From positions 1-64,000 of the forward strand of contig NZ_JRKJ01000018.1 of NCBI RefSeq assembly GCF_000770795.1: a stretch of 64,000 nt of DNA. Reading direction: 5' to 3'. Positions 51,456-63,905 of the stretch are shown one piece after another (position 1 is the first letter of the stretch; each line of letters opens with the position of its first letter). The notes below the pieces were generated by a model. That model did no database searches, was not told the origin of the DNA, and was given only the letters and a program-made list of their open reading frames with translations. The stretch is from Lysobacter dokdonensis DS-58 (lineage in GTDB: Bacteria > Pseudomonadota > Gammaproteobacteria > Xanthomonadales > Xanthomonadaceae). The position numbers and the translations under genes are program-made.

Positions 51456-52754
51456 TTACGCGGATGACGAAGGGTTGGCGAGACGGCGGCGCAATTCGGT
51501 CAATCGCATGTCCCCCGCTCCACCCGGCGAAACACGCGCCGCCAGACTCGCCGAAGGATCGCCTTCCGCCCACTTCGCCGGATCGGACGCCTGCTTGTAC
51601 GCCTCGCGGAACGGCACGCCCTCGCGTGCGAGATCGACCGCCAGGTCCGTCGCATACATCGACGGATCGAGCGCCTCGCGCATGCGGTCGACGTTCCAGT
51701 CGAGGTTGCGCAACAAATCCGGCAACAACGCGAGCGCGGCCAGGCCCTTGCCGAAGCCATGGAACAGTGCACCCTTCGAAATCTGCAGGTCCCGGTGGTA
51801 ACCGCCCGGCAACGACAGCAGGTGTTCGATCTCGCTGCGCGCGGCCGCAACGCTGGCATAGGTGCCGCGCATCAGCTCGACGACATCGGGGTTGCGTTTG
51901 TTCGGCATGATCGAACTGCCCGTCGTGTACTGCGAGGGCAGGCGCACGAATCCGTACTCCGCCGTCGTGAACACGCTCAGGTCCCACGCCAGGCGGCGCA
52001 GGTCGAGCATCGCGCTCCCGAGCGTTTCCAGCGCGGCGATCTCGAACTTCCCACGCGAGAGTTGCGCGTAGAGGGGCGAGACCTGCATGCGCGCGAAACC
52101 CAACGCTTCGGTCGTGTGCCCGCGATCGAGCGGGAGATTCACGCCGTACCCGGCGGCCGTGCCGAGCGGATTGGCATCCACCCACGCGCGCGTGTCGGTG
52201 GCGCGTTGCGCATCGTCGATGAACGCTTCGGCCCACCCCGCCCACCACATGCCCGCGGAAGAGACGACGGCGCGTTGCAAGTGCGTGTATCCCGGCATCG
52301 GAATCGACGCCTCGGCCTCCGCGCGATCCAGCGCGATGCCCGCCACTTCGCGGCACAACGCCTGCACCAATGCGAGCTTGTCCTTCAGCCACAGACGCGT
52401 GGCGACGAGGATCTGGTCGTTGCGGCTGCGGCCGGCGTGGATGCGACGCCCCGCGTCGCCGAGGCGCTCGGTCAGGCGCGCTTCGATGGCCGAATGCCCG
52501 TCCTCGAAGCGCGCATCGAGCACGAACGCACCGCTGCGGAAATCCTCCGCCAGCGCGGTCAACTCACGTTCGAGCCCCGCGAGCTCATCGCTCGTGAGCA
52601 TTCCGATCCGCTGCAACCCCTGCGCATGGGCGCGGCTGGCGGCGATGTCGTGCAGGAAGAATTCGCGATCGAGCAGCACGTCGTCGCCGGCGAGGAACGA
52701 TTGAATCTGCGCGTCGACCCGGACGCCCGGCTTCTGCCACAACAGGTCGCTCAT
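51456..52754 (-). CDS. argH: Argininosuccinate lyase
   Basis: A 432-residue fumarase/aspartase-superfamily enzyme that cleaves argininosuccinate to arginine and fumarate. The signature [18 protein letters not shown] with its flexible loop, the [11 protein letters not shown] segment and HAGRSRNDQ are clear. The ATG overlaps the argC stop by four bases. It is the last gene of the arginine operon. Confidence 0.95.
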
Positions 52755-53722: not shown

Positions 53723-54318
53723 GCGTGACGCCCCATGCGGCCGATGAGGTTCTGCTTCACCGCCGGCCACTCCGCATCGATGATCGAGAAGTTCACCGTG
53801 TCGCGCAGCGTGCCGTCGCGATGGCGGACGTGGTTGCGCGTGATGCCTTCTTCCTTCGCGCCCAGGCGCGCGATGGCGGTGCGCGAGGCGAGGTTGAACC
53901 AGCTCGTCTGCAATCCGACCGAGGCGCAGCGCAAGGTTTCGAACGCATGGCCGAGCAGCAACAACTTCGCTTCGGTATTCAGGCCCGTGCGCTGCACGCT
54001 CGCGGCATACCAGGTGTACCCGATCTGCAAGCGCGGCACTTCGGGTGCGAGCTCGTAGTAGCGCGTGGTGCCGACGATCTTGCCTGCGCCATCGCGGACG
54101 ACGAATGCGAGCTGGTCGCCTTTCGCCTGCTTGCCGAGCGCGCCGTCGATGTAGGCATCGACGTCCTTGGCTTCCGGCACGTTCGTGAACCACAGGTCGT
54201 ACAGCCGGCCATCCTCCACTGCTGCGCGCAGGCCGTCGGCGTGCGCGGGCGTCAACGCTTCCAGGCTGACATGGCGGCCCCGCAAGGTCGGCGGCGTCGT
54301 CCAATCGGCGGTCGTCAT
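53719..54318 (-). CDS. GNAT acetyltransferase within the arg operon
   Basis: A 199-residue RimJ/RimL-like GNAT. The binding loop sits around [21 protein letters not shown], and the conserved LGAKEEGI and NFSIIDAEW segments are typical of the ribosomal-protein-like acetyltransferases. It overlaps the neighbouring argC and argAB genes by four bases each. The substrate is unknown, though its place among arg genes may matter. Confidence 0.85.
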
Positions 54319-55649
54319 GCCGCATCCTCCAGGGTGGCGGGCCTTGCGGCGCAATGATCGACGCAGCGCGCGATTTCGTCGAGCGATTCGACCCCGTACC
54401 AGTACACGTCCCAGCGCGGCTGCTTCAGGCACCCGTCGCTTTCGGAGAAATAGAACGCGTTGACCGGATTGCCGCGGCGCGAGCGCCAGAACATGCGCGG
54501 GTTTTCCTCGCGCATGACGTTCCAGACCGCACGGCCGAGGCCTTCGCCCTGCGCTTCGTCGAGGACGGCGAACTTGTCGAGGTACACGCCCGCATCCTCC
54601 TGCGTGAGGATCACCGCGACGCGGTAATTCTCGCTGACGTACGCACGATGCAGCGTCGTGCGCTCGAAGTAATCCGGCAACAGCTTGCGTCCGAACGCGG
54701 ACTCGATGAGCGTGCGCATGCGCGGCAGGTCGAGTTCGTCCCAGCGCGTCGCCGACAGCACGCGTTCGCCACGCCGCACCAAGGTGCCGGAGCCGGTGTG
54801 CGTGAACAGTTCCTTCGCCAACTCGGCCGGCCGAGTGATCGACACGGATGTCGACAGCGGCAGCGTGTCGAGCAACGCCTTGATCTGTTCGATCTTGACC
54901 TTCATGCCGCCATGGATCCACGGCTGCGCGATCAGATGTTCGTACTCGGTCGAGAGATTGATCGAGTCGATCACGTTGCCCGCATCGTCCAGCAGGCCGC
55001 CCGTGCCGGTGAGGAACACGATCTTGTACGGTTGGAGCTTCTGCACGAGCTCGTTCGCCGCGAAGTCGGCGTTGATGTTGAGGATCTGTCCGCCGGCGGT
55101 TTCGCCCAGGCTTGCGATGACCGGGATCGAACCGGCCTGCAGGCTCGCCTGGATCGGCGCGAGGTCGACGCGCTTCACTTCGCCCACCAGGCCGAGCGAT
55201 TCGCGATCGAGATACTCGGCTTCGAACACGCCGCTGACGATCGACGTCGCGCGCGCGTCCTGCGCCTGCAGTGCTTCGACGAGCTTGAGGTTCTGCGCAT
55301 GGAAGACGCGTCGGACGATCGCCAACGCTTCGGGCGACGTCACGCGCAACCCGTTCACCGTGCGCTTCTCGATACCGGCGGCGGCGAGTTCGTCGTCGAG
55401 CTGCGGGCCCGCGCCGTGCAGCACGATGGGCGTGAGGCCGACGTCCTGCAGGAACGCGAGCGACGAGGTCAGCGCTTCGAGATCGTCGCGCAGCACCGCG
55501 CCGCCGACCTTGACGACGGCGAAGCGCGCCGCGTCCAGTTGCGAGAAGCGCTTGAGGTACTGCGAGATCTCCTTCGCGCCGGCCATGCTCGAAAGCAGTC
55601 GGACGATGGTCTGGCGGGTCTGGGGATCGTGGATGTGCATGACGTTCAT
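54315..55649 (-). CDS. argB: Bifunctional N-acetylglutamate kinase / synthase
   Basis: A 444-residue fusion. Residues 1 to about 290 are the amino acid kinase domain, with [35 protein letters not shown] and [15 protein letters not shown]. The C-terminal 150 residues are a GNAT-like NAGS domain: [38 protein letters not shown] and [15 protein letters not shown]. This NAGK/NAGS fusion is characteristic of Xanthomonadaceae. The ATG overlaps the deacetylase stop by four bases. Confidence 0.94.
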
Positions 55650-56728
55650 TCGAGGATGCGCACGATGGAGTCGGTGTAACGCTGCAGTTGGTCGAGGGCG
55701 ACCCATTCGTCGGCGGTGTGCGCCTGGGCGATGTCGCCCGGTCCGTAGACGAATGCGGTCATGCCCGCGCGCGAGAAGAGCGACGCCTCGGTCCAGAAAT
55801 CGACGGCGTTGCCGATGGGCAGGCCGAGCTCGTCGGCGAGGTCGCGCGCTTCCAGGCGCCGCGCTTCGGCGAGCGCGATGTCGCCCGACGGCAGCGACGG
55901 GCCGCGGAAGGTTTCTTCGTAGCGGGCGAGCGCGCCGGGTTCGGCGAGCTTGCCGAACGCGTCGTGCAACTGCTCGAACGCCATCGACGGCAACGGACGG
56001 AACCCGAAACGCACTTCCGCCGCCGGCGCGATCACGTTCGCCTTGATGCCGCCTTCGACGCGGCCGATGTTGAAGCGCAGACCCGTCAGCCCGCCGAAGC
56101 GCTGGTGCGATTCGGCGTCCACGAGATCCAGCGCGCGGCTGCCCCAGCGCATCGCGTGGTGCAGCGCGCTGGCGTGCAGCGCGTTCTCGCCCGACGCATG
56201 GCCCGCCTGGCCCTGGAAACGCAGCAACACCGAACTGATGCCACGATGCGCGAGCACCGCTTCGCATTGCGTGGGTTCGGCAATGATCGCTTCGGCGAAC
56301 CCGTGATCGCGTGCGAGGAATGCATCGATGCAGCGCGCGTCGTTGGCTTCCTCGTCGCTGCTGAACAGGAACGCCGCGTCGCCCTGCGTCACGCCTGCTG
56401 CGGCGACCAGGCCCGCAGCCGCGCCCTTGATGTCGCATGCGCCCAGGCCGATCGCACGATCGGCCGTGATGCGCAGGCGCAACGGATCGGCCGTCCACGC
56501 GGGCGAGGACGGCACCGTGTCGAGATGGACGTTGAACACGCGGCGCGGGTTGCCGCGCACGGCGAGCAGCGACACCGCGCCCTCGCCATGGTCGGTCACC
56601 GTGCACTCGAAGCCCGGCAGATGCGCGCGCAGGTACGCGAAGATGCCCGCCGTCGTGATCGCCCGCGGCGGGTTGCGCGTGTCGAACGATACGAGCGATT
56701 CGAGATGGCGAAGGACGCGATCGAGCAC
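55646..56728 (-). CDS. argE: N-acetylcitrulline/acetylornithine deacetylase
   Basis: A 360-residue M20 metallopeptidase. Metal ligands are in [31 protein letters not shown] and [11 protein letters not shown], and a C-terminal histidine sits in [11 protein letters not shown]. In this operon context the substrate is inferred to be N-acetyl-citrulline. The start is one base after the argG stop region and is tightly coupled to argB. Confidence 0.92.
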
Positions 56729-56729
56729 C

Positions 56730-57929
56730 TCAGCGGTCCTTTTCGTTCACCTGGGCCCACAACGTGCTGCTCATGCCGAACAGGCGGATGAAGCCTTCGG
56801 CTTCCTCCACGCCCCAGTCGGCCGATTGCGCGTAGGTGGCGCCCTTCGCATTGAGCAGGTGCGGCGAACGGATTGCGACTGCGTCGACGCGGCCGCCGCG
56901 CGTTTCGAGCACGACTTCGCCGTTGACCATGCGCTGGCTGGAGGCGAGGAAGGCTTCGAGGTCGGTCTTCAGCGGATCATGGTAGAAGCCTTCGTACACG
57001 AGCTCGACCCACTTGCGCGCCACGTCCGGCTTGAAGCGGTTCTGCTGCTTGGTCAGCACCGCTTCCTCCAGTGCGCGATGCGCGGCGAGCAACGCGGCCA
57101 GGCCCGGGGCTTCGTACACGATGCGGCCCTTCAGGCCGATCGTCGTATCGCCGGTGTACATGCCGCGGCCCACGCCGTACGGCGCGAACAGGGCGTTGAG
57201 CTTGGCGAGCAACTGCGCACCGGGCATCTGCTTGCCGTCGATCGACACTGCTTCGCCTTTCACGAACGCGATCGTCACTTGCAGCGCATCGGCCGGCCAT
57301 TGCTCGCGCGGTGCGCACCAACCGCGGGCGCCTTCGCCCGGCGCTTCCCATTTGTCGATCTCACCGCCCGACAACGTCACGCCGAGCAGGTTTTCGTTGA
57401 TCGTGTAGGCCTTCTGCTTGGCGCGCACGGCGAAGCCGCGTTCCTCGAGGTACGCCTGTTCGTACGCGCGCGTCTGCGTGTGCTCCTTCTGGATCTCGCG
57501 GATCGGCGCGACGATCGTGTAATCGCCGCTCGCCTTCACCGCCAGATCGAAACGCACCTGGTCGTTGCCCATGCCCGTGCAGCCATGCGCGATCGCGCGC
57601 GTGCCGAGTGCATGTGCGCGTGCGAGCGTCGCATCGACGATCAGGTAACGGTCCGACACCAGCAGCGGATACTGGCCCTGGTAACCCTCGCCCGCCATGA
57701 CGAAGGGCTTGACGAAGCCGTCCCAGATCGCGGGACCGCCGTCGATGGTGACGTGCGAGGCCACCCCGAGTTCCGCGGCGCGCGCTTCGATGGTCGCGCG
57801 TTCTTCCGCATCGACGCCGCCGGTGTCGGCGAACACGGTGTGAACGTTCCAGCCCTGCTCCTGCAGGTACGGCACGCAGAAGGAGGTGTCGAGGCCGCCG
57901 GAAAAGGCGAGGACGATGTCTTTGTTCAT
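56730..57929 (-). CDS. argG: Argininosuccinate synthase
   Basis: A 399-residue ATP-pyrophosphatase-type ligase. The ATP loop is [33 protein letters not shown] and [20 protein letters not shown] are conserved substrate-binding segments. Here it is placed between the transcarbamylase and the deacetylase genes. The ATG at 57929 has a GGAG-like region before it. Confidence 0.94.
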
Positions 57930-57955: not shown

Positions 57956-58984
57956 TCAGCGGCGCTGGCCGATGAGCGAGGCCATGACCGCTTTCTGCAC
58001 GTGCAGGCGGTTCTCGGCTTCGTCGATGGCGATGCATTGCGGCGAATCCATCACCGCGTCGGTGGCCTTCACGTTGCGGCGCAGCGGCAGGCAGTGCGAG
58101 AACACGCCGTTGTTCGTCAACGCCATCTTGGCTTCGTCGACGATGAAGTGCTGGTGCGCATCGCGGATGGGCTTTTCCGGCGCCCAGTTGCCGAAGTACG
58201 GCAGCGCGCCCCAGCTCTTGGCATACACGGCATCGGCGCCGCGATACGCGCTTTCGATGTCGTGGCTGACCTGCAGGGAGCCGCCGCTTTCGGCGACGTT
58301 CTGCGCGGCCCACTGCATGTAGCGCTCGTCGAGGATGTACTCGGGCGTCGGGCACAGCAGCGTCACGTCCATGCCCATGCGCGTGGCGATGGTGAGCGCG
58401 GAGTTGGCCACCGCGGTGTTCAGCGGCTTGGGGTGGTAGGTCCACGTCAGCACGTATTTCTTGCCGCGCAGGTCGGTGGTGCCGAAGTGTTCCTGCAGCG
58501 CCAGGATGTGCGCGAGCTCCTGGCACGGGTGCGTGATCGTCTCCATGTTGATCACCGGCACCGACGAATATTTCGCGAACCCCTTCAGCACGCGGTCTTC
58601 GCGATCCAGCGACCAGTCGACGAACTTCGGGAACGCACGCACGCCGATCAGGTCCACGTAGCGCGACAGCACGCGCGCGACTTCGGCGATGTGCTCTTCG
58701 GTTTCGCCGTCCATCACCGTGCCGAGGTCGAACTCGATCGGCCAGGCGTCCTTCCCCGGCTGCAGCACCACGGCGTGGCCGCCGAGCTGGAAGGCGCCGA
58801 TCTCGAAGCTCGTGCGCGTGCGCATCGAGCTGTTGAAGAACACCAGCGCGATGGACTTGCCTTCGAGTGCCCGCGGGCCGAGCGGCTGCTGCTTGTACTG
58901 CGCAGCCATCGCGAGCACGGCGTCGAGCTCGTCGCGCGACCAGTCCTGGGTGTTGAGGAAGTGCCGGAGCGGAACCTGTTTCAT
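57956..58984 (-). CDS. argF': N-acetylornithine transcarbamylase
   Basis: A 342-residue transcarbamylase of the AOTCase type. The carbamoyl phosphate loop is [13 protein letters not shown], with [11 protein letters not shown] and [13 protein letters not shown]. The usual ornithine-specific SMG loop is replaced by [17 protein letters not shown], typical of N-acetylornithine use (EC 2.1.3.9). This determines that the cell makes arginine through N-acetylcitrulline. It is the first structural gene of the arg operon, with a 240-base leader. Confidence 0.95.
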
Positions 58985-59025
58985 GGAGCGTCCTGTGGGG
59001 AAGGAAATCGCCGGGCCATGAACGA

Positions 59026-59090
59026 AGAAACCCAGCGCAAGGGCTGGGTTTCTGGCGGATCCGATACGACGCGGCGCGCTACCCAGCGAA
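59026..59090 (-). promoter_or_regulatory. Candidate transcription attenuator of the arginine operon
   Basis: On the minus strand, AGAAACCCAGC (59053-59043) and GCTGGGTTTCT (59036-59026) form a perfect 11-bp terminator-style hairpin, followed by a TCGTT tail, 42 bases before argF'. An upstream GCTGGGT (59087-59081), which covers the end of a small leader ORF, can pair instead with the same ACCCAGC, giving a possible antiterminator. The U-tract is weak, and the hairpin could simply end the upstream gene. Confidence 0.45.
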
Positions 59091-59183
59091 AATGTGGGGG
59101 AGCGGTCGGCGCGCGCGCGAGGTCATGCCCGCCGCCATGTAGGCGGAGGTGAGGACGTCGGCGTCGGCGCGGCAGGTCTGCAT
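59079..59183 (-). CDS. Possible arginine leader peptide
   Basis: A 34-codon reading frame [10 protein letters not shown]...[14 protein letters not shown]. Three arginines in four codons (Arg23, Arg25, Arg26) come 7-8 codons before the UAG stop, and its last two codons overlap attenuator segment A. There is no strong ribosome site, and shorter starts at internal ATGs (codons 16 and 20) are possible. High GC makes chance open frames likely. Confidence 0.3.
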
Positions 59184-59224
59184 CGGGCGCGCATGGTCGC
59201 ACCGACGGGCCGTCGTTGCAATGT

Positions 59225-59680
59225 TCACTTGCGCGGCGGGATGTAGGGAACGACGCTCACGCGCACGCGCAGGCGGTTGCCCGGGTCGTACGGCAGGCGC
59301 GAGCGGTACTTCGTGCCGCGATAGACGTAGTCCACGTCGTAGGCGATCGGGCGGCGGAACTCGCGCACCACCGGCACCATCTCGCAGTTTTCCTGCTGGG
59401 GCGCGGGCTCGGGCTTGCGCGACACGGCGCCCTTCACCGCGCCGACGATCTTCGCCAGGCCCTTCTCTTCGGCGGCATGCGCCTGGTCGGAGCACCGCGG
59501 TTCCATCCGCGTGGCGCGCAGCACCTGGTAGATCGGCTGCACCCGCATGACCTGGGCGAAGTCCATCCGCACGTTCTCGGGCTGCAGCACCGTGGTGCCG
59601 GCGTCCTGCGCGAACGCCGGCCGCCCGGCGAGGGCCAGGGCAAGGAGGACGGCAAGACGGAAGGACGTGAAGAGGCGCAC
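59225..59680 (-). CDS. Small secreted protein of unknown function
   Basis: A 151-residue protein with a Sec signal peptide (residues 1-24, AGRPAFA before QDAGTT). Two cysteines (RCSDQ and ENCEMV) and the terminal [20 protein letters not shown]-type motif recall small exported Xanthomonadaceae proteins. A GTG start at 59680 gives the best signal peptide. Divergent from cysS; the arg leader follows it. Confidence 0.72.
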
Positions 59681-62867: not shown

Positions 62868-63905
62868 TCAATCGCCCATCTGCTTTTGCAGGTGTTCCCA
62901 GCGTTCCTGCTCGTCGATCGTGCGTTCGGCGGTCAGGCGGGCTTCCAGTCGGTCCAGGCCGATCTCTTCGCCCGAGTCCACGCTGTAGCCGTATTCGCCG
63001 GCGTCCAGGCGCTTGAGCGTGCTGTCGATCTTGCCGATCAGCTTGCGATAGCGGTCGCGGGTGCGCAGCTCGAGCGAGTTCTCGGTCTCGCGCGTCGCAC
63101 GTTCGGCTTCGTCGCCGACGTCGCGCACTTCGTCCTTGAGGTTCTCGATGGTCTGCTTGGATTCCTCGACGAGGTCCGCGCGCCAACCGAGCAGGCGCTG
63201 GCGGAAATATTCCACCTGCAGCGGGCTCATGTACTCCTCATCCTGCGAGGGCTTGTAACCCTGCGGAACGACGGGGCGGCCCGTGCCCTCATCGGTCTTG
63301 TAGTCGACGACTTTCACTTTACCCCGCGGTGCAGGTGCGGCCGGTTTGGCGGCCACGGCAACCGCCACTTTGCCCTCCGGGCGTGGGCGGGGCGTGACGG
63401 CGGGCGCAGCCGACGAGGCGGGCTTGGGCGACGTCGCGAGCGCTGGCTTTGCGGATTTCGCCGCGGCCTGCGGTGCGGGGGCCTTCGCTTCGACCTTCGG
63501 CGCCGGCGTGACCGGTGCGCTCTTGGTCGCGGGCTTCGCGGCGGGCTTCTTGACGGCGGCGACGCGCGTCTCGGGCTGCTTCGCGGGCGCTGCGGCCTTC
63601 ACGGGCGCGGCCTTGGCGACGGGCTTGACCGGAGCGGCGGCCTTCTTCGCGGGCACGGGCTTCGCGGCGGGCTTCACGGCCTTGGCGGGCGCGGGCTTCT
63701 TCGCGGGCGCGGCTTTCTTCGCGACGACGGGCTTCTTCGCAGGCGCGGCCTTCTTCGCGACAGGCTTCTTCGCCGGCGCGGGTTTCTTCGCTGCGGGTTT
63801 GGCGGGCTTTGCGACGGGCTTTTTCGCCGCAGTCTTCTTCGCCGCCGGCTTGGCGACCTTCTTCGCGGCCTTGGCGGCCTTCTTCGCTGGTTTCTTCGCT
63901 GCCAC
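62868..63905 (-). CDS. DksA-like RNA polymerase-binding protein with Lys/Ala/Pro-rich extension and no zinc cysteines
   Basis: A 345-residue protein. Residues 1-215 are low-complexity Lys/Ala/Pro repeats (AAKK, KPAAKK, KAAPAKK), similar to histone H1-like or AlgP proteins. The last 130 residues align with DksA: MSPLQVEYFRQRLL, coiled coil, and LELRTRDRYRKLIGKIDSTL. The four DksA cysteines are replaced (GYSVDSGEEIG for C114/C117; AERTIDEQER for C135/C138). The coiled-coil tip reads D265-x-x-E268-x-A270 in place of DxxDxA. A GTG start and a TATAAC promoter are upstream. Confidence 0.87.
   Translation of the reverse strand: MAAKKPAKKAAKAAKKVAKPAAKKTAAKKPVAKPAKPAAKKPAPAKKPVAKKAAPAKKPVVAKKAAPAKKPAPAKAVKPAAKPVPAKKAAAPVKPVAKAAPVKAAAPAKQPETRVAAVKKPAAKPATKSAPVTPAPKVEAKAPAPQAAAKSAKPALATSPKPASSAAPAVTPRPRPEGKVAVAVAAKPAAPAPRGKVKVVDYKTDEGTGRPVVPQGYKPSQDEEYMSPLQVEYFRQRLLGWRADLVEESKQTIENLKDEVRDVGDEAERATRETENSLELRTRDRYRKLIGKIDSTLKRLDAGEYGYSVDSGEEIGLDRLEARLTAERTIDEQERWEHLQKQMGD

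Follow-up and report, generated by a model that had tools for sequence, protein, structure and literature searches.

The arginine biosynthetic operon of Lysobacter dokdonensis DS-58 and its relatives is very probably switched on at arginine shortage by a leader open reading frame (ORF) and an RNA that can fold in two ways, in the absence of the usual arginine repressor. The leader precedes argF' in a 64,000-nucleotide stretch of contig NZ_JRKJ01000018.1 (hereafter the window), and sequence comparison suggests, with a probability of about 85%, that it is a ribosome-mediated transcription attenuator of the trp/his type, which is specific for arginine and acts in place of ArgR. Transcription would begin about 2 nt upstream of the leader AUG, with the ribosome trailing the RNA polymerase. 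When charged tRNA-Arg is ample, the ribosome would pass the R-A-R-R codons, reach the stop codon and cover segment A, upon which segment B would pair with segment C and transcription would end ahead of argF'. When charged tRNA-Arg is scarce, the ribosome would halt on the Arg codons, most critically at CGA, and would leave segment A, usually 11–19 nt downstream, open, so that A:B would form before C is made and the arg operon would be transcribed. We infer termination, stalling, arginine dependence and the kinetic order of folding from elements, conservation, covariation and spacing that are directly observed, and from the 5' end of a Xanthomonas RNA reported by Liang et al. (2011, PMC3039613), which lies 2 nt before the leader AUG.

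The initial annotation had placed a 34-codon leader with R-A-R-R codons ahead of argF', and each of its elements is found in position on the minus strand (Table 1), including the overlap of segment A with the leader stop, where the final T of GCTGGGT is the first base of TAG. The terminator-type B/C hairpin that it had described, a predicted intrinsic terminator, has an 11-bp stem and a 6-nt loop, is followed by T-rich DNA in the window, and covaries in relatives. As a single sequence, the window leader has an unimpressive fold z-score of -1.88, and a generic terminator scan called 2 terminator-like sites in 4 kb compared with 2.2 in shuffles, which is chance level. Between the Arg codons and B, the sequence that best complements B has a score of 19, compared with an average of ~10 over 200 dinucleotide shuffles (p = 0.005 and 0.010 in two shuffle runs). 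In the window genome, the leader model has one strong match, at 96.3 bits, with the next best at 26.3 bits. A T-box or a known Rfam riboswitch was rejected, as the sole Rfam match at gathering score in the window is a tRNA. The strong evidence for the leader switch is comparative rather than drawn from the single sequence.

Table 1. Features of the leader and of the arginine operon in the window.
Feature	Position	Strand	Basis
Probable promoter: -35 TTGCAA (59221–59216), 17-nt spacer, -10 GACCAT (59198–59193)	59193–59221	-	Layout shared in the window's family
Match to Rfam RF02242 (Xoo5)	59069–59145	-	37.5 bits, E 1.9e-6; under the 50-bit gathering score
Leader ORF, 34 codons plus TAG (ATG 59183 to TAG 59079)	59079–59183	-	Direct reading; protein-level constraint in relatives
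R-A-R-R codons CGC GCG CGC CGA, proposed stall site	59106–59117	-	Direct reading; comparison with relatives
Segment A, GCTGGGT, antiterminator arm pairing with B	59081–59087	-	Direct reading, pairing, covariation
Segment B, AGAAACCCAGC, partner of A or C	59043–59053	-	Direct reading, pairing, covariation
Segment C, GCTGGGTTTCT (59036–59026), with T-rich tail to 59021 (59030–59021: TTTCTTCGTT), predicted terminator	59021–59036	-	Direct reading, pairing, covariation
argF', N-acetylornithine carbamoyltransferase, first gene of the operon	57956–58984	-	NF003384, 625.6 bits
argG	56730–57929	-	Family search
argE'-type M20 deacylase	55646–56728	-	Family search
argAB, amino-acid kinase and NAT domains	54315–55640	-	Family search
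argH-like ORF	51456–52754	-	Named by eye from the translation

Families are denoted here by the labels of the genome set (f1, f2 and so on), where f1 is the family of the window, with Lysobacter, Xanthomonas, Luteimonas, Stenotrophomonas, Pseudoxanthomonas, Thermomonas and others as named members. A leader, that is, an ORF with an Arg cluster, a complement of B and a terminator, is present at 138 of the 146 argF' loci examined, eight loci without a terminator having been removed before the leader count. These loci comprise 81 from the family set chosen by ArgF' together with the window, 41 chosen with the leader model itself, and 24 remote ones that came from 30 further remote genomes searched with the ArgF' protein alone; the leader is present at 81/81 and 16/24 of the loci in the two sets taken by ArgF'. 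All 80 family loci, which are the best 80 of 578 ArgF' relatives in named genomes, have a small ORF with the T/A-S-R-A-R motif, followed up by a terminator hairpin and by a complement to B that is at least 5 nt long, and the DNA of L007 and L030 carries the motif too. Together, f1, f2, f3 and f12 provide 113 leaders with the motif, 95 of which are distinct.

When 398 genomes of the order were searched with the leader model R1, every listed f1, f2 and f12 genome matched at E ≤1.6e-15 and 8/10 f3 genomes at E ≤2.4e-10, while at E ≤0.01 a match was obtained in 384 genomes and none in 14, which belong to f3, f5, f7, f8, f9 and f11. The tally of 384/398 overstates the spread of the leader, because weak model matches are mostly bare terminators; only bare terminators were matched in the f9 genomes G230, G311 and G356. 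Among the 87 loci taken from model matches (L083–L169), ArgF' adjoins in 72 and does not in 15. Eight of the 24 remote ArgF' loci are without a leader (five in f11, one in f5 and two in f9). In the f9 genome G205, which has no leader at argF', an Arg-rich small ORF, GGCTGG and a terminator stand directly before argAB (L206:1356–1530), so that the leader of this genome seems to precede a different arg gene. Neither a leader nor ArgR was found, at the places looked at, in the genomes G201 and G223, of f5 and f9 respectively, which counts against the proposed attenuator. The leader search was confined to the order, because at E ≤1e-80 ArgF' was found only there (5/369 genomes of the class, all five inside the order). 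The initial annotation had made its proposal depend on the conservation of the leader and its pairing in relatives, and the leader ORF, the Arg codons, the A/B and B/C pairing and the position before the first arg gene are indeed kept in ten of the order's families, and compensatory changes accompany them.

The ArgR repressor does the same job as that proposed for the leader, namely low arg expression at plentiful arginine, but it is a DNA-binding protein instead of an RNA leader. ArgR (PF02863) was found in none of the 198 family genomes, the window genome included, and an operon controlled by ArgR was rejected for this reason. In the order, PF02863 was present in 8/299 genomes, all of them f11; the control for the PF02863 searches was positive in 8/14 known genomes. 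In five f11 genomes (G207, G216, G224, G231 and G255), argR lies ~1.4 kb from an argF'-like gene, and the five argF'-like loci examined have neither leader nor terminator, a comparison made with the reserve that the f11 carbamoyltransferases share only 39–42% identity with ArgF' and may have a different enzymatic role. If the attenuator reading is correct, one family of the order would rely on a repressor and the other families sampled on an RNA leader, and the tuning of arginine synthesis would be explained in most of the ArgR-less order (Xanthomonas, Lysobacter, Stenotrophomonas, Luteimonas and kin).

Both partners that the initial annotation had assigned to segment B, A or alternatively C, are supported by the covariation across relatives that it had proposed to look for. 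In the wide alignment A2, which holds 86 leaders (29 of 81 from f1, L006 being excluded for a misplaced cluster, and 57 others), and by shuffles that ignore the relatedness of the sequences, A:B shows 86.3% standard pairs, two-sided change at 4/8 pairs (reached by 8/500 shuffles) and 35 double-change cells compared to 16.6 when shuffled (0/500 as high), whereas further pair types are not above shuffles (290/500). By the same measures, B:C is 99.6% paired, with 58 double-change cells versus 18.3 (0/500). The covariation scores in A2, 0.167 for A:B and 0.245 for B:C, exceed those obtained when the arms are slid (0.023–0.084 and at most 0.141, respectively). B:C covariation is visible even in the family-only alignment A1, where A:B is 93.4% paired and scores 0.071, a value that 465/500 shuffles equal or exceed; A1 gives no A:B covariation because A is nearly invariant there and several rows are misaligned. 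The middle position of the three arms (A-B-C) reads T-A-T in 91, C-G-C in 36 and mixed in 11 of the 138 leaders, with 14 changes in A, 11 in B and 10 in C on the ArgF' tree. In f12 it is C-G-C in 20/21 leaders, and L160 has T-A-T across all three arms.

Segment A was chosen as the best complement of B, a possible bias that does not extend to the alignment counts, where it was not chosen in this way. In a control in which the middle base of B was swapped, the own B scores higher in 80/89 leaders (A) and 36/40 leaders (G); in f3 the own B is preferred in only 4/8, which counts against the pairing. Shuffle tests of 129 distinct regions yielded p ≤0.05 for the B complement in 91 and p ≤0.01 in 29, with a median of 0.025 in f1, 0.27 in f2 and 0.33 in f3. 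The remote leaders L141, L174, L176 and L177 show no clear segment A, which likewise counts against it.

These comparisons also bear on the idea that B/C is a plain terminator of the upstream gene, a same-strand ORF that ends at 59225, and that the leader ORF exists by chance. Such an origin is hardly credible and was rejected, since the leader is conserved and coding, A covaries with B, the terminator is only 41 nt from argF', which starts at 58984, and the Xoo5 5' end reported for Xanthomonas in the passages of PMC3039613 falls within the interval. The upstream ORF itself (59225–59680, minus strand) belongs to no Pfam family, and its NCBIfam matches (PRK11280, UmoD) are weak and below cut-off. 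The gap immediately after it is overlapped by the leader promoter.

An Arg cluster is found in all 138 leaders kept. In the twelve codons around the motif in the 95 distinct leaders, deviations from the majority number 69, 19 and 265 at codon positions 1, 2 and 3, respectively, which shows that the leader ORF is under protein-level constraint and therefore very probably translated. The residues around the Arg codons are near-invariant in the 95 distinct f1, f2, f3 and f12 leaders, whose third positions vary synonymously, and by this comparison peptide conservation exceeds the need of codon sensing and counts against pure attenuation. The same near-invariant residues would be expected if the nascent peptide ...ARMA[SA]GMTSRARRP itself responded to arginine or another ligand by arresting or releasing the ribosome, the readout through A/B/C being unchanged. 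However, the peptides of f4, f6, f7, f8, f9 and f10 are unrelated to that of the window, merely Arg-rich (RRRR, RRLRRP, RRRP and similar), and are combined with the same A/B/C, and codon choice in the cluster is skewed to CGA, which makes nascent-peptide sensing rather improbable. The Ser codon before R-A-R-R (59120–59118 in the window) is TCG in 95/95 distinct leaders, and its neighbours vary at the third base. No NCBIfam model was found for four leader peptides, and the window peptide matched 0 Pfam families at E ≤0.01, a search of low power for so short a peptide.

A single inosine tRNA-Arg decodes CGC, CGU and CGA, and it reads CGA least well. The cluster Arg codons of the 138 leaders, counted in related and therefore non-independent sequences, are CGC (186), CGA (148), CGT (99), CGG (2) and AGA (1), with at least one cluster CGA in 133/138 leaders, and in the 95 distinct leaders the final Arg of the cluster is encoded by CGA 90 times and by CGG once. 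The Arg codons in the five arg genes of the window are CGC (112), CGT (19), CGG (9), CGA (3) and AGG (1), and as an internal control, the Arg seven codons before the motif Ser is often CGG (33/70). From this codon choice we infer that the leader monitors the inosine tRNA-Arg isoacceptor at its weakest codon. A near-leaderless gene in which cluster Arg is nearly all CGC, CGU and CGA, with CGA enriched, would also be a natural test of codon-choice ideas.

The spacing of the elements agrees with that required of a ribosome stalled in the cluster, as 11–19 nt separate the last Arg codon from A in 130/138 leaders and 5 to 27 nt do so in the other eight, and the attenuation reading of the initial annotation is thereby supported by spacing as well as by conservation and covariation. 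Folding was computed for 136 leaders on the RNA before C exists, with a threshold of 0.5 for A:B. With the ribosome on the last Arg codon, A:B exceeds this threshold in 96/136 leaders, compared to 1/136 with the ribosome on the stop codon. Other values count against the switch: A:B is above 0.5 in 78/136 leaders with the ribosome on the first Arg codon, in 78/136 without a ribosome, and in only 46/79 f1 leaders with the ribosome on the last Arg codon. In the window, A:B is 1.0 with the ribosome on the last Arg codon, 0.0 on the stop codon, 0.96 without a ribosome and 0.15 on the first Arg codon, the last of which likewise counts against the switch. The contrast in these folding values is therefore between a ribosome at the stop codon and a stalled one, and according to this model an untranslated leader could also read through. 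Once C is included, B:C prevails in almost every state (means 0.90–1.0), a further point against the switch, and since the terminator wins at equilibrium, the decision would fall while the polymerase is between B and C, and would thus be kinetic. In classical attenuators the decision is likewise made while the polymerase is between the two segments.

The start of the leader transcript is indicated by promoter matches and by a published RNA. The best promoter match ends 6–10 nt ahead of the leader start in 62/71 f1, 3/3 f2, 8/8 f3 and 10/14 f7 leaders, and 24–37 nt before it in 17/21 f12 leaders, and the generic scan of 4 kb called 0 promoter sites in the window. A Shine-Dalgarno-like 4-mer is found in 4/127 leaders with an assigned start, 11/138 having been set aside for the lack of a start codon within the 22–40-codon window. 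Independent support for the near-leaderless start comes from the Rfam sRNA Xoo5 (RF02242), whose consensus begins with cuAUG, in which AUG is the leader start, and whose model stops short of B and C. Full-length matches above the gathering score were obtained at the leader in 4/8 and 7/20, that is, 11/28 loci scanned (L009:1743–1866, L022:1743–1866, L027, L066, L082, L074, L045, L071, L067, L016 and L014), and the match in the window fails this threshold. Judged by these matches, the orphan sRNA Xoo5 of Rfam is the 5' part of this leader in Xanthomonas.

Liang et al. (2011, PMC3039613) determined the 5' end of sRNA-Xoo5 by RLM-RACE, taking the farthest among six to ten clones, and the 3' end from two cloned sequences, with a cloned length of 124 nt; their Northern blots showed bands of ~130 and ~100 nt early in growth and only of ~100 nt later. 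The RACE-mapped 5' end is 2 nt before the leader AUG, and the leader gene of Xanthomonas is therefore practically leaderless; from this end, transcription in the window is expected to start at about 59185. The predicted terminated RNA is ~160 nt long (L022 coordinates, from 1743), and the cloned Xoo5 3' end lies just before B. The published sizes of ~130 and ~100 nt do not match ~160 nt, perhaps owing to processing, trimming or a size error, and they count against the attenuator reading.

Since Rfam classes Xoo5 as an sRNA and small RNAs were seen on the Northern blots, the locus might be a gene for a trans-acting sRNA without a tie to argF' control. This was rejected as very improbable, as the coding constraint, the Arg clusters and the location ahead of argF' (or argAB) across the order argue against it, and the passages of PMC3039613 give no Xoo5 target; the words 'arginine' and 'leader' are absent from the main text of that paper. 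Another way to accommodate the cloned Xoo5, which ends before the hairpin, is arginine control based on Rho or RNA stability, as in Salmonella speF, with a hairpin that only shields 3' ends. In the passages of PMC6386406, speF orf34 is a 34-codon ORF that senses arginine via consecutive Arg codons, but its authors report no intrinsic terminator there, whereas here the hairpin with its T-run covaries, as does the alternative A:B, and control of the speF kind has very little probability. It is conceivable, though unlikely, that a second role exists beside cis codon sensing by the attenuator, either for the conserved peptide as an arginine-dependent arrest peptide or for the released leader RNA (Xoo5) as a trans-acting molecule. 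Such a role would account both for why the peptide is conserved in f1, f2, f3 and f12 and for Xoo5 RNAs that are shortened and vary with growth phase. A trans-acting product of an attenuator has been described for Sinorhizobium trpL.

The leader shares with the proteobacterial attenuators of the trp/his type a leader peptide containing codons for the amino acid that the operon makes, a stop codon by segment 2, mutually exclusive 2:3 and 3:4 pairings and a terminator before the first gene. It differs from them in that the amino acid is arginine, the gene is near-leaderless, A and C are almost identical in sequence, and no uniform 1:2 protector hairpin was found, only short segment-1 complements. 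Leaderless attenuator ORFs are known in the mycobacterial cysteine uORFs and Sinorhizobium trpL, in which the mRNA likewise starts at or near the AUG, but these concern other amino acids and lineages. Salmonella speF orf34 has the length of 34 codons and the clustered Arg codons in common with the leader, but its output consists of Rho termination, RNase G decay and control of the ribosome-binding site of ornithine decarboxylase (passages of PMC6386406). Homology to peptides of the orf34 type (DUF2618, named in that paper) was not found in the low-power Pfam search of the window peptide (0 families, E ≤0.01). The cysS leader uORFC-8-2 of Rhodobacterales is also predicted to act by ribosome-mediated attenuation with tandem cognate codons, but it concerns cysteine, a tRNA synthetase gene and other bacteria (passages of PMC8632094). 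RF02242 covers the same locus in Xanthomonas, but is described as an sRNA in the passages of PMC3039613.

Ribosome-mediated attenuation is old, and Arg-codon sensing is known for speF with another output (passages of PMC6386406). An attenuator with an intrinsic terminator on an arginine biosynthetic operon was not found in the open-access literature, a search by which a prediction in a subscription journal could be missed. What is new in the leader is its identity with Xoo5, the near-leaderless gene and the CGA enrichment in the cluster; the initial annotation had missed the presence of Xoo5 in Rfam, the near-leaderless start, the ArgR absence and the CGA preference. If the attenuator reading is true, arginine would join the amino acids whose own biosynthetic operons have a classical attenuator, and an orphan Rfam sRNA would gain a function. 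Elsewhere in the window, the minus-strand ORF at 62868–63905 shows, by eye, a long Lys/Ala/Pro repeat region and, after it, a C-terminal part resembling DksA.
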